A DNA stretch of 64,000 nucleotides from a virus, in the IMG/VR virus record IMGVR_UViG_3300042197_003184, positions 62,001 through 126,000 of that record; one strand, given 5' to 3'. The notes below the pieces were generated by a model. The model made no database searches and had not been told where the DNA came from. It worked only from the letters and a program-made list of their open reading frames with translations. Below, piece after piece: positions 14,102-62,766 of the stretch. Every line of letters starts with the position of its first letter. Position 1 is the stretch's first letter. A program made the position numbers and the translations under genes.

Positions 14102-17017
14102 ATGAATGATCCTTTATTTTTAATACGTTTTAGTGCTGATGTTGGTGCCTACGACAGTTCTTATCCGCAAAAGGATTTGAGTAGTTATAATCTTGCTTTT
14201 AATGTAGGGCTCGGCAGATTCACCGAGGCTGCATCATTTAATGGACAAGACAGTCATGTTTTGATTCATGATTCATTGCCCGCTAACGATTACACTATAG
14301 AGATATGGTTCTATACTATAAGCAGTAACAATAAACACGTATTATATCAATATAATAATCAAAATAATTCTAAAACAGTTATTGTTTATGCTTATAATCA
14401 AAATTTATATGTTAGCATTAATAATGTAACTAAATTAATTTTACCTATTACCTATAATCAATGGACACACTTTGCGTTAGTTAAAAAGCCTGACCTTATT
14501 AAGTGTTACATACAGGGAATACCCGGTGACAATACCATACCGGACATCATTAATGATACCGAAATTAACATGATCATAGGTAATACTTTCGGGTTGGGCA
14601 ATACAGCCAATAGCGATTTGTTTGGTTGGTACGGCTATATAGACGAAATCAGAGGAATGCCAGAAATAGTATACATAAATGGAGGATTTCCTGTACCAAC
14701 CGCCCCTTTTCCGGATGTGACCCCAAGTCCCATTCCAACGCCAACCAATAGCGAGACTCCAACTAACACCCCCACCATTACGCCCACTGAAACTCCAACA
14801 GAAACTCCAACAGAAACTCCAACAGTAACGCCAACCGAGACCCCAACGGCAACGCCAACAGCAACTACGACAGTTACTCCGACTGAAACGCCAACTACTA
14901 CTCCCACAGTAACTCCTACCACAACCCCAACCAATACTCCATCGATAACCCCAACCGAAACACCGACCAATACTCCAACAATAACGCCAACTGAGACCCC
15001 AACGGTTACGCCGACCAATACTCCAACAATAACGCCAACTGAGACCCCAACGGTTACGCCGACTAATACTCCAACAATAACGCCAACTGAGACCCCAACG
15101 GTTACGCCGACTAATACTCCAACAGTAACGCCAACTGAGACCCCAACGGTTACGCCGACTAATACTCCAACAATAACGCCAACTGAGACCCCAACGGTTA
15201 CGCCGACTAATACTCCAACAGTAACGCCAACCAAGACACCCACAAATACACCAACAACAACACCCACTACGACCCCCACAAATACTTCTACTCAAACACC
15301 GTGGTACACGCCGAGCACAACCCCCACAAACAGTCCGACTAACACCACGACTCCAACACCAACTGTTTCTTCTACAGCTACAGCTACCCCAACAGTATCG
15401 GTGTCGGTATCGTGTTCTGCGACCCCTTCTGCAACAGTTACTCCAACAGAAACCCCGACACCTACGGCTACTCATACCCCTGTTGTTTCCGTAACTCCTA
15501 CCCAGACTCCTTCCCCAACAGCAACAGCAACAAATACTCCTCAACCAACAGCAACACCAACAAAAACAGTCACCGCCACACCAACCAATACGCGTACACA
15601 GCCCATATCTGGTACTCCAACACAAACTCCAAACCCAACATCCACACCCACATCGACTCCCACTGTTTCTCCTACAGCTACTAGCACGCCCACTAAGACA
15701 GCCACACCCACCAGAACGCCATCAAGAACACCCAAACCCACCAGGGCTATTGTCACGAAACCCAAACTAAAGGGCTTGGGCACTAAAAACAACCCTGTTA
15801 TTGTTAATACCTTAAATAAAGACGAAATTATTACATTCTTTCCTAATCTCAATGGAGAAATCAAATATACTTCTGATATTTCTGGGGCTGTCATTGCTGC
15901 CAAAAAGAATGGCTTGGTTATAGCTTTAACAACCCCCACTCCTACGCCAACATCCACAAAAACACCGACACCAACCGCGACACCGACCAGAACAGCCACT
16001 TCTACTGTTACTCGTACGGTAACGCCAACAGTTTCTTCCACCCCTTCCAATACCCCAACAACATCCGTAACTGCGACCCCAACAACTACAGTAACCAACA
16101 CACCGTCTACCACTAATACCCCCACTGTAACCCCATCATTAACATCAACAGCTACGCCAACACCGTCTATTAGTCCGACAACAACAGTCACGGCAACACC
16201 AACATCCACAACATTTCGGACACCTACACCAACAACAACGGTCACTGTATCTAGTACTCCCACCACCACAGTTAGCGCTACGCCTACCGTAACACCCACC
16301 CCAACTACCACCGCCACCCCCACCTGTTCCGTAAGTCAATCAATAGGATATATACCTTCCCCCCAAAACATACCACCTACGGCAACTATAACTCCCACCA
16401 CTACGGTTACAGAAACCATAACACCCACCGTTACTACAACACTTACTGTCACGCCAACAGTTAGTATTACAACCAGTAATACAGAAACGCCATACCCAAC
16501 CGCCACACCAACGCCTACTATTACCACAACCAATACAACAACCCCAACAAGAACCGCTATTGCTACACCCACCCCAACCGGCACCGCATACGAAACGCCA
16601 ACCCCCACCCAGACAGTATCCTCAACCCCAACCGCTACCCTAACCTCAACAGCAACAATTACGCCGACACCCAGTATCACAGAATCTCAAACCCCAACTC
16701 CTTCGCCGACCAATACTCGCACCGCAACTCCCACCCCAACAAGCACCACTACCGGATCAACGACTCCCACGCCGACCAAAACACCAAGACCAGGAACAAA
16801 TACAGGTCCTGGATGTGCATTATTTGTTACAACAAGAGATCAGATACAGATTTATTTAGATGAGTCATTCACAGGAGAAAGCTCTAGCGGAGAGATTAAG
16901 ATATGGATAGAACCAAAAGTTAGTTGCAATTCTATTCCTAACAGAAGGGGTTTTTCTCCGCCACCCACCCCAACATCACAATCTTCTCAAACTAATTCAT
17001 CACCATCTACGAGTTGA
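14102..17017 (+). CDS. LamG-headed Thr-Pro-rich tail fibre
   Basis: A 971-residue protein. Residues 1-196 are a LamG/concanavalin-like sandwich ([33 protein letters not shown]), a fold that usually binds glycans. Residues about 203-548 and 609-898 are two long stalks of PTxTPTxT repeats. A small globular insert lies between them at about 548-608 ([20 protein letters not shown]). Residues 898-971 form a compact C-terminal domain with two Cys. The stalks should be extended and are rich in possible O-glycosylation sites. The gene lies at the end of the late structural block. Its role as a receptor-binding fibre or decoration is inferred. Confidence 0.7.
14965..15232 (+). repeat. 48-bp in-frame tandem repeat in fibre stalk
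   Basis: Five full 48-base units begin at 14965, 15013, 15061, 15109 and 15157, with a partial sixth from 15205. Each encodes 16 residues of the [16 protein letters not shown] type. The units differ by only a few bases (gaccaat/gactaat, aacaata/aacagta), so they probably arose by recent slippage or unequal recombination. Copy number could vary and change stalk length in 16-residue steps. Confidence 0.85.
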
Positions 17018-19293: not shown

Positions 19294-19762
19294 GATTAAA
19301 TTCCTCCATAATACCTACCGGTGTTTTCCAGCATATGCTGTATATGTCATTAATTTCTTTATTTTTTGCTATTATACTCAAATTGTCTTTCATAAAAATA
19401 TCATACCATTCCTGATATGATCCGCTGATGTGTTCTGTCCATGGAATGTTTTCAGCATACCAATATCTAGCATGTATATTGGGACAATTTTGAGTGAGTA
19501 CGATAGATGTTATATCGAATAAAAAAAGATTTCCATAGAAGAATTTAGATTCATTTAAGTGCAATATTGGAACGTTATGCGTCGATATGCGTTCATTATA
19601 ACTAGCAAAAACACAAATATGTCTGTCTATTTCGGCGTCTATCAAAGACTTAACAGATCTTAGTATGTGATCATGGGCATTATTGTTTAATAGTTTTGGT
19701 ATTACAAATCCGATATCTTTTATGCTTGGATCGATTTTTCTTTTTTTTGTTTTAAGTGTCAT
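19268..19762 (-). CDS. Unknown protein of glycosyltransferase cluster
   Basis: 164 residues, coupled to the upstream gene by an ATGA overlap. The sequence starts with a basic tail, then IKDIGFVIPKLLNNNAHDHILRS-type alpha/beta sequence suggesting a Rossmann-like half domain. No catalytic motif was recognised. It is shorter than a complete glycosyltransferase and may be a fragment or accessory of the neighbouring transferases. Its end overlaps the start of the endonuclease gene by 26 bases, so the endonuclease gene may have intruded here. Confidence 0.45.
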   Translation of the reverse strand: MTLKTKKRKIDPSIKDIGFVIPKLLNNNAHDHILRSVKSLIDAEIDRHICVFASYNERISTHNVPILHLNESKFFYGNLFLFDITSIVLTQNCPNIHARYWYAENIPWTEHISGSYQEWYDIFMKDNLSIIAKNKEINDIYSICWKTPVGIMEEFNHESIIKIL

Positions 19763-20517
19763 GGTAATATATTTTTGGTTATGAAATCTGCATAAGATAC
19801 TGCCGAGGATAGTTTTTGTTTCCAGTATTTATTTTTATTGGTGTCTATTAAAAAATTCTTAGTTTTTGTGTTTTTCGATACGTTAGCAGAACTAACGAGG
19901 CTACAGCCGCACGACACAGCCTCTAATGAATAGTAATCATTGATATCTACAAAAAAACTACTTTTCTTCAATATGTTGGCCTTATGGAATTCATTTAATA
20001 AGCCTAAATTTTGTTTATGCTTGATATTGATGTTATTAAACATTTTTATAGGCAATTGACTATTAGGGTATAGGTATTTGGTCAAGGTGTCTGGAATCTC
20101 ATTACCACATTGATCCAAAAATACTGTAGCAAAATTTTCTTTAGTGGTTGTTTTGTCGGCTATAAACAACGATGTATTTAAAATATTTTCTGGGATAACT
20201 ATATTAGTATTATCGATAGCAGACCAATGAAAGGTTTTACAAACTCTATTAAAATCCATAAGTTCAGTATATTGACTATTATTAGGATAGTACAACATAA
20301 ATGTTTTGTTTTTATTATGATATTCTGATATGAATTGTGCTATTTCGTTTGAAAATAAATCTGATATAAAAACATATGCATCAAACTTATACAAATAGTC
20401 TAGCTTATAAAGAGTATTGTTTATATTGGCGGATATAGTTTCAGTAGATAATTGACGTAAAGATATAATTAGATTATTAATAAATTTATCATTAAATTGT
20501 TGTACAAATATTTTCAT
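19759..20517 (-). CDS. Putative GT-B-like glycosyltransferase
   Basis: 252 residues, linked by 4-base ATGA overlaps to the genes on both sides. The C-terminal third has DINDYYSLEAVSCGCSLVSS, which resembles the nucleotide-sugar-binding segment of GT-B enzymes (a Glu followed by a small-residue turn). The N-terminal half is alpha/beta. It is short for a two-domain GT-B enzyme and lacks a complete E-x7-E motif, so it may be divergent or inactive. Context is a run of transferase-like genes. Confidence 0.5.
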   Translation of the reverse strand: MKIFVQQFNDKFINNLIISLRQLSTETISANINNTLYKLDYLYKFDAYVFISDLFSNEIAQFISEYHNKNKTFMLYYPNNSQYTELMDFNRVCKTFHWSAIDNTNIVIPENILNTSLFIADKTTTKENFATVFLDQCGNEIPDTLTKYLYPNSQLPIKMFNNINIKHKQNLGLLNEFHKANILKKSSFFVDINDYYSLEAVSCGCSLVSSANVSKNTKTKNFLIDTNKNKYWKQKLSSAVSYADFITKNILP

Positions 20518-21200
20518 ATAAATGCCTTGGCTTTGGATATGTCCTTAAGACCAGTTACTTTCATAATTTTTTGCTTAGGTATGATACAGCTATCAAAACC
20601 ATGACCAGAGTCTATCAAAAGATTAATAATCTCGAACAGATATAGCTGATCCATATTGTGTTTGTCCAACAGGGATTTTAGTCTGGTTATTGCAGAACTA
20701 TTGAGATATACGCATTCTGACCATTTTTGGGGAAGATCATAAAATAGATAATCCACCGTTGTTGTGTCATGACACCCAACATCAAAATAGTTTTTAGGTT
20801 TACTGAGTATATAAATTCTAGAATGTTTTTTATTGATCGTAAAAACATGCTTAAACATAATTCCACTACTTAATATTAAAGCATTGTCGAGCTTGCCAGA
20901 AACTATACACTGCACAATACCCTTGCCCTGATTACTGTTTTTATAGTCCTGATTATACATTATTTCTATATTTTTATACTGTTGTGCTATTTTATGTATT
21001 TTTTCAGACTCAAACCCTGTAGAAATGTATATTTTACTACCAGGATAAAATTTTTGTAGTGATATGATTTGGTGTTCTATTAAAGATGTTGAGTTCTTAA
21101 GTTTTAGCAAAGACTTGGAACCAACCGACTTCATGCCTTTGGTGATCTCGGCTGCTGTAATAATAATATTAAGTTGTTCTTTTTTATGTTCCATATTCAT
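20514..21200 (-). CDS. Putative sugar nucleotidylyltransferase-like protein
   Basis: About 229 residues from the ATG at 21200. An ATG at 21194 is also possible; an upstream ATG at 21233 would extend 50 bases into the previous gene. The start region LNIIITAAEITKGMKSVGSK followed by LLKLKNSTSLIEHQI resembles the NTP-transferase (GT-A-like) signature in which a glycine-rich loop and a Lys bind the nucleotide. The canonical GGxGTR is replaced, so activity is uncertain. It could supply an activated sugar to the neighbouring transferases. It ends in an ATGA overlap with the next gene. Confidence 0.5.
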   Translation of the reverse strand: MNMEHKKEQLNIIITAAEITKGMKSVGSKSLLKLKNSTSLIEHQIISLQKFYPGSKIYISTGFESEKIHKIAQQYKNIEIMYNQDYKNSNQGKGIVQCIVSGKLDNALILSSGIMFKHVFTINKKHSRIYILSKPKNYFDVGCHDTTTVDYLFYDLPQKWSECVYLNSSAITRLKSLLDKHNMDQLYLFEIINLLIDSGHGFDSCIIPKQKIMKVTGLKDISKAKAFI

Positions 21201-21945
21201 ATGAAATAATTTCTGGCGTACTATTAATAGCATTCAAAATATTTTCTTCTGCTCTCCGTGCCGTAAAATAGTTTGTATAAGATATTAATAAGCCAGTAAA
21301 GTCAGTATTATCATGGCCTCTTTTTTTCATAACATGGAAATCTCTTTGTTCTATAATACAAATGGTATTGATTTCGTTAATGTCTTGTTCTAGTTCTGAT
21401 GATTTATCAATATTGTAAATCAGGACAAACTTAGCGCCATTAGCGTTTTTATTTCCACCGATTATAGAATGTAATGCTTCGGTGTATGAAGTGCCTTCTA
21501 AAAATACATGAGTCTTCCATGGAATGTCCAATGCTAGTGTTTTACGTATAGTTTCTATTTTTTCTTGATTGTGTTTACTATGAGAAAATAAACAGAACGA
21601 TATAAATTTGGGGAGTATAGACCCACCACTGATGGTTTGACAGTGTTTTGTCAGAGTTTCTGTATTAATATCTGTAATATCTAAGACGAGATGTATTTGA
21701 ATAGCAGCATTATTTAATATAGATCTTTTAATATCTTCTATAGAAATAGAGTCTTTGTTAGTTTCGAAAGTCTCTTTGGAGAAACCCATTCTACACTGGT
21801 AGTCTTCTATTTCGTAGTATTCATCTACTACTGATAGTTTTTTATGGTTTGTAGACAGCAGATGTTCGACAACTCCGTGCTCGCAGGCTTCGTTTTGTAA
21901 CGCTGGGTGTGCAAAAAGACATTTTCTACATGATGTTTTTTTCAT
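21184..21945 (-). CDS. Cys-motif protein of glycosyltransferase cluster
   Basis: 253 residues. The first 55 residues hold a Cys-rich element (CRKC, CEHG, YQCRMGFS) that probably binds a metal or Fe-S cluster. The remainder (IQIHLVLDITDIN, FISFCLFSHSKHNQEKIETI) looks like an alpha/beta GT-A-type fold, but no DXD motif stands out. It is coupled by ATGA overlap to the 137-residue gene upstream and overlaps the nucleotidyltransferase-like gene downstream. Function not known; a role in sugar transfer is inferred from context. Confidence 0.45.
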   Translation of the reverse strand: MKKTSCRKCLFAHPALQNEACEHGVVEHLLSTNHKKLSVVDEYYEIEDYQCRMGFSKETFETNKDSISIEDIKRSILNNAAIQIHLVLDITDINTETLTKHCQTISGGSILPKFISFCLFSHSKHNQEKIETIRKTLALDIPWKTHVFLEGTSYTEALHSIIGGNKNANGAKFVLIYNIDKSSELEQDINEINTICIIEQRDFHVMKKRGHDNTDFTGLLISYTNYFTARRAEENILNAINSTPEIISYEYGT

Positions 21946-22355
21946 ATAAGATTGATTCTAGTAATAGTTGCTAATATATGATAGTCTTGATATTCTATTC
22001 TTGAAATAATAAAATTATCATCAATTAAAGCGTTTAATTTATCAATACTGAGTAATGACTTGTTATCCTGAAAAAATAACACAATATCATCATCTGATAT
22101 GCTATTATCATAGTAGGCTTTAGTAATAATTTTCGCATTAATAAATTTGAATACGGCAGTACCCCCAACCCTAATTTTAGACATAATGGATGATACTAGG
22201 TTTTGTCTTTGCTCGTTATTTAATTCATTAATATTATCGCAATATAAAGTATCTACGGAATGATTGATTATTCTATCGACCATACCAACAGAGATACTAT
22301 CGAAATTAGCAATTGATCCTTGTTTATTCCCATAAAGATAAATATTTCTACTCAT
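21942..22355 (-). CDS. Truncated methyltransferase-like protein
   Basis: 137 residues with ATGA overlaps on both sides. The middle (VDTLYCDNINELN, then SSIMSKIRVGGTAVFKFINA) resembles the post-motif half of class I SAM-dependent methyltransferases, where a carboxylate-bearing strand is followed by an LxxGGxxxF turn. The usual N-terminal glycine-rich SAM-binding motif is absent, so it is either a degenerate enzyme or a repurposed half fold. It could belong to nucleotide or glycan decoration with the surrounding genes. Confidence 0.45.
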   Translation of the reverse strand: MSRNIYLYGNKQGSIANFDSISVGMVDRIINHSVDTLYCDNINELNNEQRQNLVSSIMSKIRVGGTAVFKFINAKIITKAYYDNSISDDDIVLFFQDNKSLLSIDKLNALIDDNFIISRIEYQDYHILATITRINLI

Positions 22356-23197
22356 ATTGTAAATGGCTCCCCTGCTTGTTTAATAAAAATCTCCGATATA
22401 GCTCCATCAAATACCTCAAAGCTATGAGACTGTAAAAGGCGGTTTCTTATATCTAGGTTTCTTTTTTTATCGTAATTTTTTATGGATTTCTGTATACTGT
22501 CATTCAGGCTATTACTGTCTTTAAAGGTTAGTATATGATCATGATCATAGGTATGATTAGATATAATAGAACATCCACAAACAGAGGCAAACAAAGTATT
22601 AACATAACCATCAAATATCAGAGCAACTTTATATTGATTCAGATTGTCCGCTATACTGTCTAAATTATTAAATTCCGTTATTATACCCGCATCTGGTAGT
22701 ATATCTAAAATTTGCTGATGAATAATTCTGCATTGTCTTATATTCTGATTGGATACTAATACTATAGATTTTCTGTTCTGTTCATTGATAGGGTATTCTG
22801 GAATACCAATTTTCATAGTATCTATTTTTATGGGCCAAGCTTTAGCTACAGACTCATTGAAACATATCTTGGTTATGTTTTTAAGAGAGTTATTCAATAT
22901 AATGAGGTCTTCTTTTTTTAAATAGGTCGCCGGTAAATTATCTATAAATACTAGACCATTAATATATTCTTGAAACATAATGGTTTTGATACTTTGATGA
23001 TCTAAGTAGTTGGTAGATACGCACAGTGACCAGTCTGTGCTTACTCCGCAACTAGAGTGTAGTATGTTAGCTTTTTTTATTTTGTATAATATTAGGTCTA
23101 TAATAGAACTATTTGAGTTGCTAATAATATTCAAACCATGATTGTGTTTAATCTTGGCTGCTGTATTAATAATATTGGCTGTGGCTGAGTGTTGCAT
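22352..23197 (-). CDS. Putative GT-B-like glycosyltransferase
   Basis: 281 residues, coupled by ATGA overlap to the next gene. An N-terminal alpha/beta half ends near KIGIPEYPI. A second Rossmann-like half starts at SIVLVSNQNIRQCRI and carries DGYVNTLFASVCGCSIISNH, parallel to the SLEAVSCGCSLVSS segment of the other putative transferase in this cluster. The two may be distant paralogs. The sugar and acceptor cannot be read from the sequence. Confidence 0.5.
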   Translation of the reverse strand: MQHSATANIINTAAKIKHNHGLNIISNSNSSIIDLILYKIKKANILHSSCGVSTDWSLCVSTNYLDHQSIKTIMFQEYINGLVFIDNLPATYLKKEDLIILNNSLKNITKICFNESVAKAWPIKIDTMKIGIPEYPINEQNRKSIVLVSNQNIRQCRIIHQQILDILPDAGIITEFNNLDSIADNLNQYKVALIFDGYVNTLFASVCGCSIISNHTYDHDHILTFKDSNSLNDSIQKSIKNYDKKRNLDIRNRLLQSHSFEVFDGAISEIFIKQAGEPFTI

Positions 23198-23198
23198 A

Positions 23199-24206
23199 TT
23201 ATATTAATCTAGATATCGGTATAGTATTTTTTTGACGAGGTTTTTCTGGTTGTTTATAGACAAATTCTCTCATATTGTTAATCAAAGAGTTGGTGAGAAC
23301 AGAAGCGTGATTATCATCTGGTAAATATTTTCTATGTTCGTTAGAGTAGCACGGAACGTCAACAATAACGGTATTATCTTCATCCATAATATGATTATTC
23401 ACAACTTCTGCAATTTCTTTGTGAAGAACTGTCGTACTACGAGAAAAACAAAGCAGGGTTTCACAAGTTTTATGTAAGGCAATTTGGTCTTGTATGCTCA
23501 TAGGGGTGAATAAGAACAGCTCTACTAGACTCTTATTAGATACATTAATATTGAGTTCTTGTTTGGTTTGTTGAATAAATCTGGTCAGATCCTTCTGGTC
23601 CTCAGAGTCTCCGGTAATTGACAGAATAATACTCTGTCCATCTCTGCATCTAAAAGCTATGTAGAAAGATAGTAGTATTTTTTTTATTAAGTCGTGTTCA
23701 CGCTTATAGTGAAAAAAACCATAGAATTTATGGTTGTAGTTGTGTGCCCCAAAATTAAATCTTTTATCTCCTATCGCAGATATTGTTTCAGATAAATCCA
23801 CGTCTGTTTTAAGTATTTTAGACTTGATCTCCGACTTTAGCAATAGGCTTATATCCTGATCTGTATTAACTATAACTTTATCAAACCTATTTAAATTTTC
23901 GATAATACGATCATCTGTTATATTAGAGTAGCCTCCAAATATTGGTATCGCAACGTGTTGTGGAAAAAAACCAGAATAAGCTAGTTTATCTATTGGGAGA
24001 TGCTGTATGCAGCAATCATATTTCTCAGACCCGGACGTTTTTTCTAGTTTAGAGATTGATTCGTTAATGGGACTATATGGGTTATTTTCCAAATAAAATG
24101 GTCTTAAATGTAACATATGACTATCTTGTAACGTTTTTATATACCGACGACTAATTTCGCCATAGTGCGTGTCGTCCCTATATGGTCCCAGATATAAAAT
24201 ATTCAT
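23199..24206 (-). CDS. Putative GT-B-like glycosyltransferase
   Basis: 335 residues beginning MNILYLGPYRDDTHYGEISR, a typical GT-B N-terminal strand and loop. A linker region (FNFGAHNYNHKFYGFFHYKR) leads into a second half with SIILSITGDSEDQKDL. A late segment HKTCETLLCFSRSTTVLHKEIAE occupies the place of the donor-binding E-x7-E motif. It overlaps the upstream 556-residue transferase by four bases (ATGA), so the two are translationally coupled. Substrates unknown. Confidence 0.55.
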   Translation of the reverse strand: MNILYLGPYRDDTHYGEISRRYIKTLQDSHMLHLRPFYLENNPYSPINESISKLEKTSGSEKYDCCIQHLPIDKLAYSGFFPQHVAIPIFGGYSNITDDRIIENLNRFDKVIVNTDQDISLLLKSEIKSKILKTDVDLSETISAIGDKRFNFGAHNYNHKFYGFFHYKREHDLIKKILLSFYIAFRCRDGQSIILSITGDSEDQKDLTRFIQQTKQELNINVSNKSLVELFLFTPMSIQDQIALHKTCETLLCFSRSTTVLHKEIAEVVNNHIMDEDNTVIVDVPCYSNEHRKYLPDDNHASVLTNSLINNMREFVYKQPEKPRQKNTIPISRLI

Positions 24207-25873
24207 GAAGACCCCTTGATTCTAGCATACTCTAAGTAGTCATCATTGAATACAACCTTACCATGCCTTACTCTCTCCGAATTATTGATGTTATCTATAT
24301 AAGTAGAGATAGTTTCTTCCATATTGTTGAGGCCGTATGAATCGATAGTGGTTCCGCTTTGAACGAATCCATAATCTAAATCCTTAAGCATATCTAGAAA
24401 AAACATAGAAGACATTAGTTGATAGTTGTGTAGATGGTTATTGCATATGTTTATTAGAAGATCAAAATATTGACCATTAATTTGTTGTTTATCTAGGGAT
24501 TGGATAGGTACCAAATGTCTGGGATCAATATCCCAATTTGATCTGAAACCTTTGGCATCTAATTTATCTAGATACGCCTCCCACTTTTTTGCAACATCAT
24601 CCCAGTTATAATATTTTTCTGTGAGTTTTCTGGTTTTAGTTTTGATCTTATCGAGTTCCTCCGAAGACATAGCCAACAAACACAATAACTTATCTGCTAA
24701 ATCGTCGTTATCGGGGTAGGCCCTAAAGGCTTTAGTTTCTAGCTCTTTGAATTTTGTCTGTACTTTAATTTTTTGAGCCCCTAACTTTTCTATAATATCC
24801 ACCATAGCGCTATAATCAACAGTTAGAATTGGTAATCCACTAGCACCAGCTTCTACTTGTGGCATACCGGCTCCTTCGCATATGGCATATTGTACATAAT
24901 AGTCGAATATGTTATATATAGAAGCTAGTTGTTTGCTACTAATTCCTCTGGTCACAGTGGGAAAAGCACATGAAACCTCCATACAATTTTGGCAACCCGT
25001 AGCTGGACCACAAAATGTTTTGGCTATAATGTCATTACATTTTTTACAAGAATAGGTAAAAAAGACCCTATTAGATAGTCTATTAGATTTCAGTAGTTCT
25101 GGTATATCCCATCCGATATCTGGATAGCTTGTATGTAGATATAGAAAAGTTTTATTATATAGTGGGGAATTTTGTTTCTTTAGGTTGTCAAGTACTTTGC
25201 GAAAAGATATCAATAGATCTGGGATGAGTTTTCTTTTTTGGTTCCTCATAACGGACCCAACGATTACAGAATCTTCTGGTAACCCAAGATTTTGTTTAAT
25301 AGTGCGCTTTATAGAATCATTAACGGGTTTAAATGTCTCAAGATCCACACCCGGGGCTGCTGTATCAATATAATTTATTTGATTCGATGTTTGGTCTAAT
25401 AAAACCTTCGCACCCCAGTCCGAATATGTAAAGACGGCATCCGCGGAGAGATACGTGTCTAGCCATGATTCTTGTTGAGGGGCCGAATCAACTGTTGGCA
25501 TTAGTATCCAATGAAAATATTTTCTCAGAGGAGATGTTGCCTGATAATGGCTCATCCAGTAGTCTCTTACGTCTATTACTACATCTGGTTTAAAGTCCAA
25601 CAGAACCTTTTCGAATCTCCATCTACCAAATTGGTTATCTGGTCTAGATGTATATTCCTTATGTCTGGGGTCGTCGTTACCGACAGCATTGGCATAATAT
25701 CTCCATTTGATGGTTACGTCCTTGGGATCATTCACCAAGCCATACGAAGCAAATTCAGCTATTTCATATTTGTTGGTGGAGTGTAGCCGAGATAAAAGCT
25801 CTTTTGCATAGATTGCGAATCCGGAACTCAGGAAGCTTGCTTCGGAGCACATCAAAATTTTCATCTTAGACAT
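24203..25873 (-). CDS. GT4-like glycosyltransferase with Cys-rich insert
   Basis: 556 residues from the ATG at 25873 (SD-like GAGAG). An in-frame ATG at 25918 lies inside a GC-rich hairpin and is unlikely. Two-domain GT-B retaining transferase: N-terminal KILMCSEASFLSSGFAIYAK, and donor-site EGAGMPQVEAGASGLPI with an intact E-x7-E. Between the two sits an insert with CKKCND, CGPATGCQNC and MEVSC, probably a structural zinc site. A helical C-terminal extension of about 130 residues follows. This is the most complete transferase of the cluster and heads it. It could modify DNA bases, virion proteins or host glycans; the sequence does not decide. Confidence 0.75.
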   Translation of the reverse strand: MSKMKILMCSEASFLSSGFAIYAKELLSRLHSTNKYEIAEFASYGLVNDPKDVTIKWRYYANAVGNDDPRHKEYTSRPDNQFGRWRFEKVLLDFKPDVVIDVRDYWMSHYQATSPLRKYFHWILMPTVDSAPQQESWLDTYLSADAVFTYSDWGAKVLLDQTSNQINYIDTAAPGVDLETFKPVNDSIKRTIKQNLGLPEDSVIVGSVMRNQKRKLIPDLLISFRKVLDNLKKQNSPLYNKTFLYLHTSYPDIGWDIPELLKSNRLSNRVFFTYSCKKCNDIIAKTFCGPATGCQNCMEVSCAFPTVTRGISSKQLASIYNIFDYYVQYAICEGAGMPQVEAGASGLPILTVDYSAMVDIIEKLGAQKIKVQTKFKELETKAFRAYPDNDDLADKLLCLLAMSSEELDKIKTKTRKLTEKYYNWDDVAKKWEAYLDKLDAKGFRSNWDIDPRHLVPIQSLDKQQINGQYFDLLINICNNHLHNYQLMSSMFFLDMLKDLDYGFVQSGTTIDSYGLNNMEETISTYIDNINNSERVRHGKVVFNDDYLEYARIKGSS

Positions 25874-25896
25874 AATTAGCTCTCTATACGAATAAG

Positions 25897-25917
25897 GGGG
25901 CGCGTGATACGCCCCCA
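25897..25917 (-). terminator. GC-rich hairpin between ssb and glycosyltransferase cluster
   Basis: A perfect 7-bp stem GGGGGCG/CGCCCCC with a 7-base loop stands out in an AT-rich setting, 22 bases after the ssb stop and before the glycosyltransferase start. On the minus strand it is followed by TTATTCG, a weak T-tract. It fits an intrinsic terminator or attenuator that would let ssb be expressed above the downstream cluster. Confidence 0.6.
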
Positions 25918-25939
25918 TATCGCTTCATCTTTTTAGATA

Positions 25940-26314
25940 TTAGAAACTAACAGGTTCCTCTTCAGCAGAAGCCTTCGATGGCTTGCTTAGCTTAGTAATC
26001 TTAGAGAAATTATTTACTCTAACCTTGAGACTACTATGCTTAACTCCGTCCTTTTCCCAGGAATCATTCCTTAAAGAACCCTCTACCAATACCAAGTCGC
26101 CCTTCTTAAAGGATGAACCTATAATCTCTGCTCCAGTATCCCATGCTTCGCAGTTAATAAAAGAAGCAACCTTATCCTTTTCTCCGTTGGACTTAGTATA
26201 CTCTCTAGACACTGCAACTGTGAAATTAACCACAGATGTCTGCTTACCGCCGGTATTAACCACTCTTAGTTCTGGATCACGAGCTAGGTTACCTCTCAGA
26301 ATTGTAATATTCAT
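25940..26314 (-). CDS. ssb: Single-stranded DNA-binding protein
   Basis: 124 residues. Typical OB-fold SSB: MNITILRGNLARDPELR start, VVNFTVAVSREY, SFINCEAWDTGAEII, KGDLVLVEGSLRNDSWEKDG. A short acidic tail ends EEEPVSF, resembling the protein-interaction tip of bacterial SSBs (usually DDDIPF). The start has AAGGAG six bases upstream and a sigma70-like promoter before it. It coats single strands during replication and recombination and probably recruits the phage replisome proteins encoded just upstream. Confidence 0.95.
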   Translation of the reverse strand: MNITILRGNLARDPELRVVNTGGKQTSVVNFTVAVSREYTKSNGEKDKVASFINCEAWDTGAEIIGSSFKKGDLVLVEGSLRNDSWEKDGVKHSSLKVRVNNFSKITKLSKPSKASAEEEPVSF

Positions 26315-26355: not shown

Positions 26356-26383
26356 ATCATAAAACGCCGCGCACGGGTGTCAA
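26356..26383 (-). promoter_or_regulatory. Sigma70-like promoter for ssb
   Basis: Read on the minus strand: TTGACA at 26383-26378, a 16-base spacer, then TATGAT at 26361-26356, both near consensus. Transcription would start near 26348, about 35 bases before the ssb ATG. The -35 box overlaps the stop of the polymerase C-half gene. This is the clearest promoter seen in the window and suggests use of the host housekeeping polymerase. Confidence 0.7.
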
Positions 26384-28005
26384 GACGATGGAATAAAACA
26401 CTTATCTACAACGAAAGCGTCTTTATTCTTGGTTTTGCTACCAATAAAAACCAGCACATTACCACTAAAGATATGGTGCTTATATTCTATCCACTTTTCT
26501 GGAAACAGTACAACAGAATCCACAATACCCGTATTATCCTCTATGGTTGTGAAAGCCATTTCTTGACCTGGATTTTTCCCCTTTTTTGTTTTCACTATAT
26601 TAACATTTGTAACTTCTCCAGCAATAATTATATTCTGTGATACTGTAGAGTTTTTTAGTTCTTTGCAATTAGCATTGGTCATACTAATGTCGTACGTATC
26701 CAATTTTGAACAGGTTATGGCTGCACCAAGTAGGGAACTTTCCGAATCGGATAGCCATTCTATCTTGTCAATTAAGGAATATGGCGGCTTCTTTATAAGG
26801 TTTACTAAATTAGATATAACGTCTTTTCTGTTCTTGTTGATCTTTCCATACTGTATAATATGTTCTAATGAGTGTATAATGTTTGTATTATTAGTCGCGT
26901 ATGCTGTAGAGAATTGTTCGAGTTCTTTTTTTGTAAGAGTTGATAGTATGTCGAAGTCGAATAACATCTCAGTTCTGTTTTTCTTAAAATAGTCAAAAGC
27001 CCCACACGATATTAGTGCTTTAGCTGCTGTGGATGTTATATTCATTAATACTTTAGTTAGAATATCTAACCAGCTATATGTATTGATATCTTGATTTTTG
27101 ACCAAATCTGTTAACTTGGCATATACAGAATCCCCCACACCTTTAATGTCTGTGAGACCAAAGTATATTTTATTGTCTTTGATCAGAAATAATTTATTCA
27201 TATTTCTAATATCTGGAATATGAATATCAATATTCATCTCATTAGCATTACGTACCAATTCTTTGATTTCTTGCTGAGGATCTATTTTATCTTTAGCAAA
27301 TCTTAAATACGAAGCAAAGAAAACTTTTGGAAAGTGGGCTTTGGTATATGCAGATAAATATGCATTGATAGCGTACGATACAGCATGGCTTTTATTAAAT
27401 GAATATCTCTGGCTTTTTTCGATCCAGCTAAAAATCTCATCGGCCTGATCGTCGGTTACCACTCCTTGTGTTTTGGCTCCTACTATAAACTTCTGTTTGA
27501 TCTTGGCCATTTCTTCTGGTTTCTTTTTACCAATGGCCTTTCTTAACATGTCTGCCTCTTTAAGATCGAATCCTGCTATGTTTTGTGCTATTTCCATAGC
27601 TTGTTCCTGATAAATCATCTCCCCGTATGTTGCACCAAGGGTGGTTTCCAAAGATGCATGAAAATGGTCTATGCTTTCTTGTCCATTTTTTCTGTCTATG
27701 TAGTGATTGGACACGCTTTTGCCATCTCTGATAGCCTCTAAGCACCCAGGTCTTAATATACTAATAAGAGCAGATAGTTGTTCTATATTTTCTGGACGTA
27801 ATTTTTTTGCCATAGATTGCCCAAGTCTGCTCTCCAGCTGAAAACACCCTTTGGTATTACCGCTAGATATTAAATCCCATGTTCTGTGACAATCCAAATT
27901 TATTGCTTCGATTCTAGGATCGAAATCCAAACTAACAGTACCGTCTTGTTTTTTTTCCAAAACTTTAAATTTACAACCACAATCAAATGACAAAAAATCA
28001 GGCAT
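26380..28005 (-). CDS. dnaE: DNA polymerase III alpha, C-terminal half (split DnaE)
   Basis: 541 residues that align by eye to the finger, beta-clamp-binding and OB-fold part of bacterial DnaE: CFQLESRLGQSMAKKLRPEN, ISILRPGCLEAIRDGKS, YGEMIYQEQAMEIAQNIAGF, the conserved SFNKSHAVSYAINAYL near residue 203, and a late OB fold (MAFTTIEDNTGIVDSVVLFP). The first 35 residues (FDCGCKFKVLE) are not DnaE-like and may be a small metal-binding or docking element. It lacks the PHP domain and catalytic Asps, which are in the gene at 28868-30736. Its ATG overlaps the exonuclease stop by 8 bases. It must associate with the N-half to work. Confidence 0.9.
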   Translation of the reverse strand: MPDFLSFDCGCKFKVLEKKQDGTVSLDFDPRIEAINLDCHRTWDLISSGNTKGCFQLESRLGQSMAKKLRPENIEQLSALISILRPGCLEAIRDGKSVSNHYIDRKNGQESIDHFHASLETTLGATYGEMIYQEQAMEIAQNIAGFDLKEADMLRKAIGKKKPEEMAKIKQKFIVGAKTQGVVTDDQADEIFSWIEKSQRYSFNKSHAVSYAINAYLSAYTKAHFPKVFFASYLRFAKDKIDPQQEIKELVRNANEMNIDIHIPDIRNMNKLFLIKDNKIYFGLTDIKGVGDSVYAKLTDLVKNQDINTYSWLDILTKVLMNITSTAAKALISCGAFDYFKKNRTEMLFDFDILSTLTKKELEQFSTAYATNNTNIIHSLEHIIQYGKINKNRKDVISNLVNLIKKPPYSLIDKIEWLSDSESSLLGAAITCSKLDTYDISMTNANCKELKNSTVSQNIIIAGEVTNVNIVKTKKGKNPGQEMAFTTIEDNTGIVDSVVLFPEKWIEYKHHIFSGNVLVFIGSKTKNKDAFVVDKCFIPSS

Positions 28006-28693
28006 TTACAAAAGATCCTTTAAATTTTACCTTTTTGGACATGTTACGATGTAATTTAAGAAATCTAATCAACAAGTTTGCTGTATCCTTAACGTCTTTT
28101 AAAGCGTCGTGAGAACCTTCGGCACTTAAGCCAAAATATTCTCTTACATGATCCAGAGTATAGTTCTTAAGTTCGTTGTTTCCTTCAAACCAATAAAACA
28201 TCATGTTCATAAGATCTATAACGTCTCTAGGATAAAAAAGAGAACTTCTGCCTTCTTTATTAAGGTTATTATATTTGATACTAAGTCTTTCTACAATTCT
28301 TAGATCGAATCTGTTTATGTTGTAACCAGCAGCTATAGGAGCAGTAAAGCAAGATTTTTTATCGGATCTTGTATGATACATGCTCAGATAAGAAACAAAC
28401 ATTTGCCATCCCTGATCCTGTTTTTGGAATTCTTTCCAGCTGTCCAGAATAGCAGCCTTAGTAGAGTTACGAACCTTGGCATGAAAGTCTAGCACATCAC
28501 TATCGGCGTAGTCATAGTCTGGATTGTCTTGTAGAGCAGACGGTTTGAGACTTATATTGAATTCTGAGTCTTTTACTATCTCTAACTTGAGAGGGTCCAC
28601 AATCACAGCAGCTATTTGAACTGGACTACAAATATCCGGATTCGCCCCGTCTGTTTCGAGATCGAAAACGCACAGTTTTTGAAAATTAGCCAT
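27998..28693 (-). CDS. DnaQ-like 3'-5' exonuclease
   Basis: 231 residues. DEDD exonuclease signatures: FDLETDGANPD near residue 10 (motif I, DxE), AAGYNINRFDLRIVERL (motif II), and a late GSHDALKDVKDTANLL (motif III with H and D, DEDDh type). It probably provides proofreading for the split polymerase. The gene lies exactly between the two polymerase halves, its ATG overlaps the stop of the 59-residue gene, and its own stop overlaps the C-half start. An exonuclease inside a PolIII-type unit recalls PolC, where it is fused in place. Confidence 0.85.
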   Translation of the reverse strand: MANFQKLCVFDLETDGANPDICSPVQIAAVIVDPLKLEIVKDSEFNISLKPSALQDNPDYDYADSDVLDFHAKVRNSTKAAILDSWKEFQKQDQGWQMFVSYLSMYHTRSDKKSCFTAPIAAGYNINRFDLRIVERLSIKYNNLNKEGRSSLFYPRDVIDLMNMMFYWFEGNNELKNYTLDHVREYFGLSAEGSHDALKDVKDTANLLIRFLKLHRNMSKKVKFKGSFVNA

Positions 28694-28865
28694 TAAATGT
28701 TACCTTTGTGTCGTCTGAAAAATATGTCTGATTATTTGGGTTGGTAACCGCCTGAGCATTGGTCACCTTACAACAGCTAATTCTGTTATCTTGCGTTCTG
28801 ATATACTCGATATCGTTATACAGGAAGCGCTGTCCAACCCCGATATCCCTAAAGTTTTTCTCCAT
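28686..28865 (-). CDS. Small 59-aa phage protein between polymerase halves
   Basis: A 59-codon ORF starting ATG at 28865 (MEKNFRDIGVGQRFLYNDIE) and ending TAA at 28686-28688, overlapping the exonuclease ATG. The start lies three bases before the stop end of the polymerase N-half gene, so it fits the operon exactly. The pattern of a short IGVGQRFLYNDIEYIR strand set with an RISCCKV turn and AQAV resembles small beta-barrel proteins common in phages. Function unknown; position suggests a replisome accessory. Confidence 0.7.
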   Translation of the reverse strand: MEKNFRDIGVGQRFLYNDIEYIRTQDNRISCCKVTNAQAVTNPNNQTYFSDDTKVTFNG

Positions 28866-28867
28866 AA

Positions 28868-30736
28868 TTAAATTGCTCCAGTTTTTAAAATATCTGATAT
28901 GGCCATAATTTTATCTAACATTGCTATACCCAATACGTCAAATTTAATAATACCCAAAGCTTCCAGGTCTTGCATTTCCATCCCGGCTATAGGTTGTTTG
29001 TTTTTGGTATCGTAGACCATTGGACATAGATCGCTTAATTTATCATTACTAATAACTATGCCAGCGGCATGTTTAGACTGGTTGGACTTGGTGCCCTCCA
29101 ATCTTATTGCTTGCTCAAACCTTTTAGATAACGGTCCCGAAAGCTGGCCTTCACTATCAATATAACACCACTCCTTTAGTTTGTCAACGTTGTTTTCCAA
29201 CGCCCATCTGATAATGGAAGCTTCTCCGGTATCTTCTTTCATTTCCTGAAGTTCGTCAGCAATCTTGGCTTCGTCCGGTATGCATTTGGTAATACGATTC
29301 ATCTCTTCAAAGGATATATTTCCGTAAACCCTTAAAACCTCTTTTAATGCTCCTCTCCCTTTCATAGTATTAAAAGTGATCATCTGAGATACTTTATCTG
29401 ATCCGTATTTATTTTTTATATACTCTATGATTTCTTCTCTTTTGTTAATAGGAACATCTACGTCAATATCTGGCATAGAAATTCTATCTGTTGTGTTTCT
29501 ACCAGCATTATAAAATCTCTCAAAAATTAAGTTATATTTTATGGGATCTATAGATGTAATACCTACTAAATATGAGACCAAACACCCTGCTGCCGAACCT
29601 CTTCCTGGGCCCGGTAGCCAACCCTCTTTTCTGACTTTATCCAGAATATCACCAACTATTAAAAAGTAACTAGATAAACCCGCACCTTGTAAAACTTCTA
29701 GCTCATATTTTATTCTGTCGGTATAGGTGTTTTGTTGGTCTTTATCTATGATGTTGGATATTTTTTCTCTCCATCCTTTGCGACAAAGTTCTCTTAGATA
29801 TTCATCTGGATTTGTATTATTAGGACACGAAAATGGAGGTAGGACTGGTTTGCTTAATATGTCATATTCTTCGCATAAACTATCTACGTATATAGTATTT
29901 TCTATTTCTTCCGAAGTATGAAGTTCTTGTATTTCCTCAGGCGATAGAATATGGAAATTCTCTGATCTAAAAAAACATTCCATCGGTATTTTTTCATTAT
30001 TTAGCATCTTTTTGTTAATATCTACCAACGTGGTTTTTAGATTATTACAAAGTAATATACGTTGGTCTATTGCGTCTTCTTTCTCGCAATAGTGGGCATC
30101 TGGCGTACAGATAACCTTAGTGTTGGTATTTTTTCCCAGCCTGCGAATCATGTCTGTGACTTCTTGTTGTATTGGGGTGTGGACAACATCCATTAGCTGG
30201 GACTCTAAGAAGAAATTATCTTTGCCAAAAATCTCTTTCATTTTATCAACATAGCTAGTGCCTATGTTCATAGCGTCGTCTTTGTTTTGTAGCATAAGGT
30301 CCGTAATATGGGATCCCAAGTGCCCGGCTATGCCTATCATATTACCGTCTAGCAGGCCGGATAAGGTTTCGATATCGAGTCTAGGCTTATGGTAAAAGTT
30401 ACCAGCTTCGTTGGATGCTGATACTATGCGTATCAGGGTTTTCCATCCTTCATGGTTTTTGGCCAGTACGATAAAATGACTTAGATCGCTATTGTCGCTA
30501 TTTTTTATAGTACAATTCTGGTGCGAAACATAAATTTCGCAACCCAAAATAGGCTTGATACCGGCAGATTTCATTACTTGGTAAAACTGTACAGTGCCAG
30601 AGATAGTACCATGGTCTGTTAATGCACAAGACTTAACTCCTATTTTTTTGCACCTATCAGCAATTTGTTGCGGTTTACTAAGCCCATCCAATAAAGAATA
30701 ATGAGAATGTACATGCAAAGGAATATATGGTTTCAT
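28868..30736 (-). CDS. dnaE: DNA polymerase III alpha, N-terminal half (split DnaE)
   Basis: 622 residues. PHP domain at the start: HVHSH (residues 8-12), ALTDHG near 38, and CTPDAHY later. Polymerase palm: GPGRGSAAGCLVSYLVG, then MPDIDVDVP near 419 with two catalytic Asps, and KFDVLGI near 599 with the third. The protein stops about 20 residues after that motif, before the conserved CFQLES region found in the gene at 26380-28005. No intein sequence is visible at the break, which differs from the cyanobacterial DnaE split site (at FNKSHS). The two polypeptides must assemble non-covalently. Coupled to the nuclease upstream by ATGA. Confidence 0.92.
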   Translation of the reverse strand: MKPYIPLHVHSHYSLLDGLSKPQQIADRCKKIGVKSCALTDHGTISGTVQFYQVMKSAGIKPILGCEIYVSHQNCTIKNSDNSDLSHFIVLAKNHEGWKTLIRIVSASNEAGNFYHKPRLDIETLSGLLDGNMIGIAGHLGSHITDLMLQNKDDAMNIGTSYVDKMKEIFGKDNFFLESQLMDVVHTPIQQEVTDMIRRLGKNTNTKVICTPDAHYCEKEDAIDQRILLCNNLKTTLVDINKKMLNNEKIPMECFFRSENFHILSPEEIQELHTSEEIENTIYVDSLCEEYDILSKPVLPPFSCPNNTNPDEYLRELCRKGWREKISNIIDKDQQNTYTDRIKYELEVLQGAGLSSYFLIVGDILDKVRKEGWLPGPGRGSAAGCLVSYLVGITSIDPIKYNLIFERFYNAGRNTTDRISMPDIDVDVPINKREEIIEYIKNKYGSDKVSQMITFNTMKGRGALKEVLRVYGNISFEEMNRITKCIPDEAKIADELQEMKEDTGEASIIRWALENNVDKLKEWCYIDSEGQLSGPLSKRFEQAIRLEGTKSNQSKHAAGIVISNDKLSDLCPMVYDTKNKQPIAGMEMQDLEALGIIKFDVLGIAMLDKIMAISDILKTGAI

Positions 30737-31815
30737 TCTGTGCTTCCTGGGGCTTTATATTTTCCAAATGAGTGAGACGGATTCTTATATTGTTGTACCA
30801 CAAAATCCATGCCGTGCAAGTCCATATCGTGTTTGACTTGTTCGCATTTGGTCATAGAGGAACCCATATTGCATATTTGTTTTTCTCTATATTCGATTTG
30901 TGGAGAAATGTGAGAGTTTTCAAATGTGGTCTTTCCAAAATGACACAATTTGGTACACATCCAGCTTTTGTTGAGTCTGGGTTTTCTGGTGTTTTTTACT
31001 ATTTCAAATTTTTGTCTTAACATTTCCTCCGTAGCCTTAAGGTCAGATTTGTCAAAACATATAGAAAAAGGACCGCCATCATTAATAAAATATATTGAGA
31101 ATATAATATGGTTTATATGAGGGTATAAATGATTTATGGCATAGTGATATATTCTTAACTGAGGGTCTTTCTCTAGTTTCTCTTGGGTTTTTTCTTGACC
31201 CGTTGCCCAATCAAGCCTTCTTCCTGTTTTCCAGTCTATTATCTCTATCGTGTCTTCGTTGACTAATGTAATTAAGTCTATAGTACCTTTAATAGCCAGA
31301 TTACCTTCTAGTTTGCCTTCATTGGTATCATAAGAATACGCAGACCAAGGTTTTTTGATTTCTATATCAAAATGTTGTTCAGGACATAGTATAAGTCTGT
31401 TTCTTGGATCGAACATACCCCCATTAAAATTGATAGCCTTATAAACCCAACTATGACAATCTTTGTAATCTTTTAGTGACCACTTGTGATGTGTTGTGGC
31501 GTCTGTATAGTGTTTATATACTTTTTCTATTAGGGTGTCCAAACTATACTTATCGCAATTGATGTTACCAACCACATCGTCGGTAACCTCATTTATATTG
31601 TCTTGCTGTGCTTTTTTTATTACCGCCAGAATCTCTAATACTTTATGTACAATGGTTCCTTTGTCTGCCTTTTGACCCGAAGGCCCACGATAGCCAAGAA
31701 CGTACTCAAGAAAATACTGTTGTTCGCACATGGAGTGCGTGTTATAAGAACTACTCCTAAAATATGTGACTATAATGATAAGGTCTCCTGTAAAAACTTT
31801 TGAATATCCATGCAT
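30733..31815 (-). CDS. RecB/Cas4-like PD-(D/E)XK nuclease
   Basis: 360 residues as drawn. RecB-family signatures: SSSYNTHSMCEQQYFLEYVL, KGTIVHKVLE (His motif), AIKGTIDLITL and EIIDWKTGRR (D and ExK catalytic motif), then QLRIYHYAINHLYP. The early Cys plus CTKLCHFG and a later Cys suggest an Fe-S cluster as in Cas4/AddB. The first ATG (31815) lies 46 bases inside the preceding kinase gene. The next ATG would remove the conserved YFRSSS segment, so a non-AUG start near 31777 after AGGAG is also possible. Likely end-processing exonuclease in replication or recombination. Confidence 0.8.
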   Translation of the reverse strand: MHGYSKVFTGDLIIIVTYFRSSSYNTHSMCEQQYFLEYVLGYRGPSGQKADKGTIVHKVLEILAVIKKAQQDNINEVTDDVVGNINCDKYSLDTLIEKVYKHYTDATTHHKWSLKDYKDCHSWVYKAINFNGGMFDPRNRLILCPEQHFDIEIKKPWSAYSYDTNEGKLEGNLAIKGTIDLITLVNEDTIEIIDWKTGRRLDWATGQEKTQEKLEKDPQLRIYHYAINHLYPHINHIIFSIYFINDGGPFSICFDKSDLKATEEMLRQKFEIVKNTRKPRLNKSWMCTKLCHFGKTTFENSHISPQIEYREKQICNMGSSMTKCEQVKHDMDLHGMDFVVQQYKNPSHSFGKYKAPGSTE

Positions 31816-47221: not shown

Positions 47222-49102
47222 CTAGAATGTGATGCTCCCGCTGCCTGTGAACGTGTAGTATGTGTATCCGCCGCTCTCGGTGCGCGTTGGCGAGCCGGTT
47301 GTAGACGCAGCAGTCACGGAGCCAAGCGTTCGCAAAATCACAACGCCAGAACCGCCAGCGCCGCCGCTTCCAGCAACGCCACTGCTTGACCCACCACCAC
47401 CGCCGCCCGTGTTAGCGATTCCAGCCGAACCGGGATTGTTGGGATTCCCATTTCCGCCGGCACCGCCTCCGCCGAGTCCGGCTGCGCCGACCGTGCCGCC
47501 GTCCCACAGACCCCCAGAGCCACCGCCCGCGTAGTAGGTTCCGTTGAGCCACTGCGACCCGTTGCCACCAGCGCCGGAGTACCCAGTATTAGATGCACCA
47601 CTTGCAGCACCGCCAGCGGCACCTGCGCCACCACCGCCACCACCGTGTCCAGCGGTTGCGTCGGACGAACCTGCGCCGCCGCTGTTGCCCTGTCCTGACG
47701 TGCCGGTGCCAGCCGTTGTGGGATTTGTTCCAGCCCCGCCACCACCGGAGCCTCCGGTGCCGCCAGCGTAGGTTTGCCCGGTGCTTATGCGAGTGCCGCC
47801 GCCACCACCGCCGGCCGATGTAACCGTGAAGGCCGATGAGTTGCTTCCAGCAACACCAGCGCCGCCGATGTTTACCCCGCCAGCGCCACCAGAACCGACC
47901 GTTACCGTGTATTGAGTACCGGCCGTCAACGTCGTTGAGCCAGACCGATACCCGCCAGCGCCGCCGCCACCGCCGTGCGAGCCGCCGCCACCGCCACCGC
48001 CTGCTATGACGAGGTATTCAACCGTAATGGATCCAGATGAAGAAACAATTAACGTTGCAACACTGCTAATGAGGCTCACTCCTCCTGTTGATTTGACTAT
48101 ACAACGATAAATTTCTCCATTATTATCAGCTTCAGTTAAATTTGATAAAGATAATGTACTGCTAGTGGCTCCAGAAATATTAGAAAAAGATGAATTGCCT
48201 TTCTTTTTCTGCCACTGATAACTTAGTGTTGCTCCTAATGTAACACTAGCGGTTATGCTAAATGAAGCATTTCCAGCACTAACAGTTTGATTAGATGGTT
48301 GAGAGCTTATGGTAATAATTGGAGAAACTGGGAATGGTACAGGTGATGGTGTGAAGTTGGATGAATAACGGGCTATTCCTTTGGTTATTCTGATTTCGTC
48401 AATATATCCTGATAATAGATAGTTAGTATCATAATATCCTCCAACACAAAGATGTTGACCAGAACAGTTGCCACTAGCTGTGCCAGAAGCTGCAAGATTA
48501 CCATTGACAAATATTCTAATAATCCCAGACTGTCTACAGACCGCAATATGATACCACTGATTAGTATTGATCAACGATGCTGGTGTTGCGATGCTTGTTC
48601 CGGCAACATTTACTCTAAGAGCACCATTATTATAATTGATTATAATGCCGGTTGTATATGAGGTTGATAGTCCTCCGGACTGATTAGTGGTTTGGATCCA
48701 GCCTCTTTGGGTAGTAGAAGATACATCACTGGAATAAACCCAAGCTTCTACTGTAAAATCACCAGTATCAAAAGCAAAAGACGAACTACTAGCCGACAAA
48801 TAATCTCCAGACCCATCAAAATAAGCCGAAGACCCACCGAACTTGCTCTGATCTGACGATTGAGTAGCATCCCCCGATACTGTTAACGTATGATTATACG
48901 ACGAACTATCAACAAAAGAATTTCCAGTTCCGTCCATATGCATCAACAAACTCACATTACCAAAATAAGGATCTGGTACTGGCATAGCAGTATATAATGT
49001 ATTGTAAGCTCCTTGTCCAATACTATTAAGAGCAGCAACTCTAAAAATATAGTCGCCACTAGGAAGAGGAGAAATATTAGCTGTAGTATTAAGTGTTGTC
49101 AT
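47222..49102 (-). CDS. Adhesin: half FN3, LamG, Ig-like, Gly-rich domain
   Basis: 626 residues from the ATG at 49102, which overlaps the previous stop as TAATG. Order: second half of an FN3 (PSGDYIFRVAALNSIGQG), LamG (VSLLMHMDGTGNSF to IDEIRITKGIARYSSNF), Ig-like domain (ISSQPSNQTVSAG to GEIYRCIVKS), and a Gly-rich domain starting VEYLVIAGGGGGG and ending YTYYTFTGSGSITF. The Gly-rich part is written in GC-rich codons, unlike the rest. The Gly-rich domain type is known from phage adhesins such as the gp38 family. Probable receptor-binding protein. Confidence 0.8.
   Translation of the reverse strand: MTTLNTTANISPLPSGDYIFRVAALNSIGQGAYNTLYTAMPVPDPYFGNVSLLMHMDGTGNSFVDSSSYNHTLTVSGDATQSSDQSKFGGSSAYFDGSGDYLSASSSSFAFDTGDFTVEAWVYSSDVSSTTQRGWIQTTNQSGGLSTSYTTGIIINYNNGALRVNVAGTSIATPASLINTNQWYHIAVCRQSGIIRIFVNGNLAASGTASGNCSGQHLCVGGYYDTNYLLSGYIDEIRITKGIARYSSNFTPSPVPFPVSPIITISSQPSNQTVSAGNASFSITASVTLGATLSYQWQKKKGNSSFSNISGATSSTLSLSNLTEADNNGEIYRCIVKSTGGVSLISSVATLIVSSSGSITVEYLVIAGGGGGGGSHGGGGGAGGYRSGSTTLTAGTQYTVTVGSGGAGGVNIGGAGVAGSNSSAFTVTSAGGGGGGTRISTGQTYAGGTGGSGGGGAGTNPTTAGTGTSGQGNSGGAGSSDATAGHGGGGGGAGAAGGAASGASNTGYSGAGGNGSQWLNGTYYAGGGSGGLWDGGTVGAAGLGGGGAGGNGNPNNPGSAGIANTGGGGGGSSSGVAGSGGAGGSGVVILRTLGSVTAASTTGSPTRTESGGYTYYTFTGSGSITF
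47225..48025 (-). other. GC-rich island encoding the Gly-rich domain
   Basis: About 800 bases at the 3' end of the adhesin gene use G/C third positions (GGC, GCG) and differ sharply from the AT-rich first part of the same ORF. The change occurs close to the start of the Gly-rich domain. A Gly-rich sequence at about 59700-60450 in this window uses mainly GGT/GGA codons, so amino acid content alone does not explain it. Best explained as a domain acquired from a high-GC source. Confidence 0.65.
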
Positions 49103-53874: not shown

Positions 53875-53889
53875 TTTATTATGGCCCTA

Positions 53890-57447: not shown

Positions 57448-57459
57448 TATAATCTTTCC

Positions 57460-57822
57460 TTATGTTGTTAGTTCTACCCAATTTTGAGACTCTTCATCCC
57501 ACTTGTAAACCTTGCCGTCTGTTGGGTGGTCTACTGGGGCTTTCCATCGACAACTGTTAGTATCCAAAGTCCATGAAGCAAAAGGCTGGGGAGCAACAAA
57601 AGCATCCAAACCCTCATTATAACTATACCCTATACCAGCATAATTTTTCCTAATTTTGCCGTTGTACGATGTTTGTTTCCATCTATTATGACCAAATAAA
57701 GAGGCTAAGAAATTTACTCCTTTGCTCTCACTTTCTTCTCCATTATCAATTAATTCATTATTGTTAACAACAATCACTTGAGTTACAATATTATTGTCAT
57801 CTAATTCAGCAAAATGGGCCAT
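57460..57822 (-). CDS. Small tail-fibre-associated protein
   Basis: 120 residues. Recognisable phage pattern: MAHFAELDDNNIVTQVIVVN start, FGHNRWKQTSYNGKIRKNYA, AFVAPQPFASWTLD, and WDEESQNWVEL at the end. Proteins of this type are common beside fibre genes in aquatic phages. Probably virion-associated; exact role not known. It stands between two giant adhesin genes with short spacers. Confidence 0.75.
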   Translation of the reverse strand: MAHFAELDDNNIVTQVIVVNNNELIDNGEESESKGVNFLASLFGHNRWKQTSYNGKIRKNYAGIGYSYNEGLDAFVAPQPFASWTLDTNSCRWKAPVDHPTDGKVYKWDEESQNWVELTT

Positions 57823-57835
57823 TTTATTCTCCTTC

Positions 57836-61765: not shown

Positions 61766-61820
61766 ATTTATCCTAAAAAGAAAGCGTATGACTAAACTTA
61801 GTTATTTATGCATACACCTT

Positions 61821-62678: not shown

Positions 62679-62699
62679 ATTAATATCCTCCTTAGAGGT

Positions 62700-62748: not shown

Positions 62749-62766
62749 TCTTTGTCGTATAGCGCA

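Follow-up and report, generated by a model that had tools for sequence, protein, structure and literature searches.

A putative DnaE-type replicative polymerase encoded in two pieces, with an exonuclease gene between them, in a lineage of uncultured bacterial viruses

The stretch of DNA analyzed here (the window, 64,000 nucleotides) comes from an IMG/VR virus record that is 139,964 bases long. It carries four contiguous genes on the minus strand, all found where a first-pass annotation of the sequence had placed them. In the direction of transcription these encode an N-terminal half of a DnaE-type DNA polymerase III alpha subunit (N-half, 28868..30736, 622 aa), a 59-aa protein (28686..28865), a DnaQ-like 3'-5' exonuclease (27998..28693, 231 aa), and a C-terminal half of the alpha subunit (C-half, 26380..28005, 541 aa). 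The starts and stops, described in that annotation as overlapping throughout, do overlap at two of the three junctions, by 8 bases each on the minus strand: the stop of the 59-aa gene with the start of the exonuclease gene (28686..28693, ATGGCTAA), and the stop of the latter with the start of the C-half (27998..28005, ATGCCTGA). The N-half and the 59-aa gene, however, are separated by a 2-base gap. A spacing of -8 is also the commonest one at both overlapping junctions in relatives (88 of about 160 relatives from the best-80 scan sets described below, for the 59-aa gene and the exonuclease), and an SD-like purine run precedes each of the four gene starts. Conserved synteny extends to the next genes on the same strand, a PD-(D/E)XK nuclease upstream (30733..31815, PF12705) and a single-strand DNA-binding protein (SSB) downstream (25940..26314, PF00436); in relatives, RecA-like, DnaB, primase, kinase, and PD-(D/E)XK genes are found upstream and the SSB gene downstream. 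Directly downstream of the SSB gene, the window continues with a minus-strand gene block (19759-25918) of which several members look glycosyltransferase-like by eye.

The Pfam domains of the two polymerase halves complement each other exactly. The N-half comprises the PHP domain (PF02811, 1e-40) and the palm (DNA_pol3_alpha, PF07733, 4e-75), and the C-half the fingers (DNA_pol3_finger, PF17657, 2e-45), a helix-hairpin-helix domain (HHH_6, PF14579, 1e-11), and an OB fold (PF01336) that stays below Pfam's cut-off but is aligned to DnaE by structure search. The domain contents proposed for both halves, including all three catalytic aspartates in the N-half, are thus borne out: D425, D427, and D600 are the counterparts of the catalytic residues of Escherichia coli alpha and are invariant among 108 distinct N-halves. 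The PHP ligands (H8, H10, D17, H42, E67, H87, H139, D213, H215) are conserved in N-halves as well, and their series HHDHEHHDH fits HHDHEH[C/H]DH, the motif by which PHP domains are classed as active (PMC12926913). The N-half scores 288 bits against Taq DnaE, 239 against that of E. coli (about 238-250 for the E. coli and M. tuberculosis enzymes), and 88 against PolC. For the C-half, DnaE chains are the only matches in sequence searches, and the best PDB matches of its predicted fold are the alpha subunits of Taq, M. tuberculosis, and E. coli, the model being of moderate quality (pLDDT 79, pTM 0.56). The C-half ends near the equivalent of E. coli residue 1071 and so lacks the region corresponding to the C-terminal, tau-binding domain; a counterpart of the E. 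coli clamp-binding motif QADMF was not seen.

By alignment, the break between the halves maps between E. coli residues ~566 and ~586 (positions read from the reference Salmonella DnaE, L187, which is annotated about 16 residues short, were shifted by +16 to E. coli numbering). On its N-terminal side is the helix next after the third catalytic aspartate, and on its C-terminal side the strand that leads into the fingers; the loop between them, which joins palm to fingers, varies in length among one-gene DnaEs. The N-half does not stop right after KFDVLGI, as had been thought, but continues for about 19 residues and retains the palm helix. Beyond the break, the C-half opens with a CGC segment (C9 and C11, present in 91% of 85 distinct sequences) and carries C39, found in all of them. 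This tail may bind a metal. The suggestion that it aids reassembly does not hold as a general device, since a subclade (L065, L073, L096-L098, L105, and L111-L114) stays split without the CGC segment; the invariant cysteine is Cys39.

As for the two genes lying between the halves, the exonuclease call agrees with the initial description: it matches RNase_T (PF00929, 6e-9) and phrog_192 (DNA polymerase exonuclease subunit), it occupies the same place in relatives, and at least 98% of 92 distinct sequences retain its DEDDh motif (D11, E13, D130, H195, D200). In reference phages, its only relatives are in Bacteroides phages, at about 26% identity. With the PHP ligands and the DEDDh residues kept, both proofreaders are predicted from their motifs to be active. 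Two proofreading nucleases with complete motifs thus share one replication operon (28868-30736; 27998-28693). The 59-aa protein is confidently predicted to fold as a small SH3/KOW-like beta barrel (AlphaFold2, pLDDT 94). Among solved structures, the SH3/KOW-like first domains of EF-P and eIF5A resemble it most, at a non-significant E of 0.07. Its closest predicted viral folds are small uncharacterized phage proteins (TM ~0.8, best E 3.5e-4), and no credible relatives by sequence were found in reference phages. A Cys-Cys pair (Cys31-Cys32) is present in 160 of 160 relatives from the best-80 scan sets.

Two scans of viral contigs for the N-half, the second of them alignment-based, gave 213 and 459 relatives, respectively, and the best 80 of each were kept. 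The order N-half, 59-aa gene, exonuclease, C-half is found in all 149 loci that hold both halves, with no fused case; these loci are mostly uncultured viral contigs from the best-80 sets, some fetched twice, and a single one of them (L062) gave no match for the 59-aa gene. Three more split cases come from contigs binned into bacterial genomes of three different bacterial groups, and a distant gammaproteobacterial DnaE is a single gene, as expected. No one-gene relative was seen inside the clade among the best 80 of 213 and the best 80 of 459. The terminase has remote matches only (24%, Bacillus phages Slash and Stahl). As far as sequences can tell, the arrangement is fixed in a large, abundant, uncultured lineage of bacterial viruses, and the claim of a genuine two-gene alpha subunit finds support both in the complementary domains and in the separation of the halves at every locus holding the two.

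Phage genomes were also searched for this break, as the first-pass annotation had advised, and the DnaE of Rossellomorea phage phiT1 (PV767480) proved to be cut in the same loop, with gp20 corresponding to the N-half, gp18 to the C-half, and a small gene in between. Unlike in the window clade, this small gene encodes a sequence-unrelated protein of 49 aa, there is no exonuclease at the break, and the CGC tail is lacking. In our tree the window clade forms one group (100/100) on a long branch, and phiT1 groups (100/96) with Brevibacillus phage Sundance, whose one-gene polymerase is itself long-branched and of uncertain exact place. No relatives of phiT1 gp20 were found in viral contigs. The simpler reading of these sequences would be that the breaks of phiT1 and of the window clade are independent.

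Very likely, in our view, the phage has a replicative polymerase of its own whose core is the product of these four genes, with a DnaE-type alpha subunit made as two polypeptides. The N-half would contribute the PHP domain and all three catalytic aspartates, and the C-half the fingers, the helix-hairpin-helix, and the OB-fold DNA binding. The cut falls in the variable loop that separates the palm helix from the strand into the fingers, and the two polypeptides would come together again without a covalent bond, through the usual contact surface of palm and fingers, to work as a single alpha subunit. The neighbouring, partly overlapping cistrons would favour the assembly of the halves. Since the arrangement is kept in every relative found, the halves very probably assemble into one working machine. 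Such non-covalent reassembly is inferred by analogy with Aeromonas phage 25, in which the products of the split gene 43 (43A and 43B) co-purify and are active (PMC2988022). From the gene neighbourhood, we suggest that the exonuclease is the proofreading subunit of the split polymerase and that the 59-aa barrel serves as a small accessory or assembly subunit, or as a nucleic-acid contact.

The two halves might also form the polymerase by themselves, leaving the exonuclease and the 59-aa protein as mere neighbours outside the enzyme. Phage replication operons are indeed populated by many unrelated small genes, and at the phiT1 break the exonuclease is lacking and the 49-aa gene is unrelated; yet in the window clade the exonuclease sits in this exact place throughout, as does the 59-aa gene with one undetected case, and DnaE usually has a DEDDh exonuclease as its partner, which makes this reading rather unlikely. 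A stronger version of the preferred reading appears similarly doubtful to us: a four-subunit family C core in which the 59-aa barrel would be obligatory and hold the exonuclease and both parts of alpha in one complex, perhaps by way of cysteines that bind a metal (the Cys-Cys of the barrel, and Cys39 and CGC of the C-half being possible candidates), with two active proofreaders.

It seems very improbable that the halves are covalently joined, whether through a split intein or through RNA splicing of an intron containing the genes for the 59-aa protein and the exonuclease. The idea has a precedent in cyanobacteria, where the DnaE halves are joined by a split intein, and the C-half of two relatives (L155 and L173) does contain HNH-containing cis inteins. 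These lie elsewhere, far from the gene break, between the RPG and the C of an RPGC motif (CISGDT...VVHN, then C) that is uninterrupted in the window. At either end of the break itself there is neither space for nor trace of intein halves, so that the junction sequences of the window genes agree with the earlier remark that no intein residues are visible; the C-half begins at a start of its own, which overlaps the stop of the exonuclease gene. An intron at the break was likewise rejected, no Rfam match being obtained up to E = 1. The break was also rightly said to differ from the cyanobacterial one: both systems encode DnaE in two genes, but the cyanobacterial cut, at the FNKSH motif (about E. 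coli residue 757), comes some 175-190 residues after that of the window (~566-586) and goes with intein joining, whereas the window genes are cut earlier and without an intein.

That the halves are the inactive remains of a decaying or sequencing-broken dnaE, the phage using the host polymerase instead, is hardly credible. Stops that cut a polymerase gene often mean decay, and no beta clamp was found by Pfam in the home record and 12 related records of 175-244 kb, so some components must come from the host. Against this reading, the identical cut recurs across many independent contigs, the halves have their own start codons and SD-like sites, every catalytic motif is retained, and purifying selection is strong: for computable pairs, dN/dS is 0.01-0.06 for the N-half, the C-half, and the exonuclease and 0.05-0.24 for the 59-aa gene (dS being saturated or incomputable for the window/L010 pair and for two genes of L096/L065). 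A second replicative polymerase together with decay of the halves had been named as the finding that would overturn the proposal. Neither was found: dN/dS is far below 1, and Pfam detected no other polymerase of family C, A, or B in the same 13 records, a result to be read with the possibility of an overlooked one, as Pfam misses very divergent polymerases and the records are possibly incomplete. Judging from these data, the locus is a fixed two-piece DnaE-type polymerase and not a product of decay. The further proposal of a PolC taken apart into a palm half, an exonuclease, and a fingers half, which the position of the exonuclease gene inside the stretch coding for the alpha subunit might evoke, can practically be dismissed given the score of 288 bits for DnaE versus 88 for PolC and a continuous PHP domain, a separate exonuclease, and an OB fold after the fingers here, where PolC has a PHP interrupted by the exonuclease and an N-terminal OB fold.

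Split phage polymerases are already known, and the present arrangement is a further variant, for which we found no paper in the open-access literature searched (most subscription journals and all preprints lie outside it). As in the window, the T4-like Aeromonas phages encode their replicative polymerase in two genes, 43A and 43B, whose products must assemble, but that polymerase belongs to family B and the present one to family C, and what separates the halves is a homing endonuclease in phage 25 and an untranslated segment in 44RR, instead of an exonuclease and an SH3-like protein (PMC2988022). Closer in family, a split Pol III has already been reported in group 2.2 jumbo phages, where the family C catalytic subunit is likewise distributed over two phage proteins; these amount to a minimal module that lacks the remaining Pol III domains, are encoded by distant genes, and occur alongside a family B polymerase (PMC7824862). 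The window polymerase, in contrast, extends from PHP to OB fold in neighbouring genes, with no PF00136 in the 13 records. Compared with the bacterial Pol III core, which also combines a DnaE alpha with a DEDDh exonuclease gene (epsilon), alpha consists here of two chains, the PHP and DnaQ motifs are both intact, and the C-terminal domain region is missing. A bacterial-type replicative polymerase can thus, it appears, persist as two chains throughout an abundant phage lineage. The palm-fingers loop, cut apparently independently in phiT1, would be a natural site for building a split Pol III and a place to study how palm and fingers assemble, and the two apparent proofreading active sites in one enzyme would make their division of labour directly testable.

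A likely candidate for the origin of the break is an old insertion, perhaps of a homing endonuclease, into a one-gene dnaE. No homing endonuclease gene is found at the break in the window, but in one relative, and only this one, an HNH endonuclease gene stands free at the junction of the N-half with the 59-aa gene (L152, about 2108-2812). Bacillus phage vB_BauM_KLEB27-3 (L184) has two annotated dnaE genes with an HNH endonuclease gene between them and a cut at about E. coli residue 614, an interruption that could be an unannotated intron. Together with the inteins of L155 and L173, these cases indicate that homing elements visit these genes. In Bacillus phage Jayan (L183), two annotated polymerase genes are separated by a 76-aa ORF, with the cut immediately ahead of the catalytic DxD, at about E. 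coli residue 400; this looks like an insertion or an intron.

Elsewhere in the window, a 971-aa ORF (14102-17017) consists mainly of Thr-Pro repeats, and the single tRNA called by ARAGORN (Pro, 16894-16974, minus strand) lies inside it and may be false. The minus strand of the region 47222-63777 encodes several very long proteins with repeated similar segments, which are tail-fibre- or adhesin-like.
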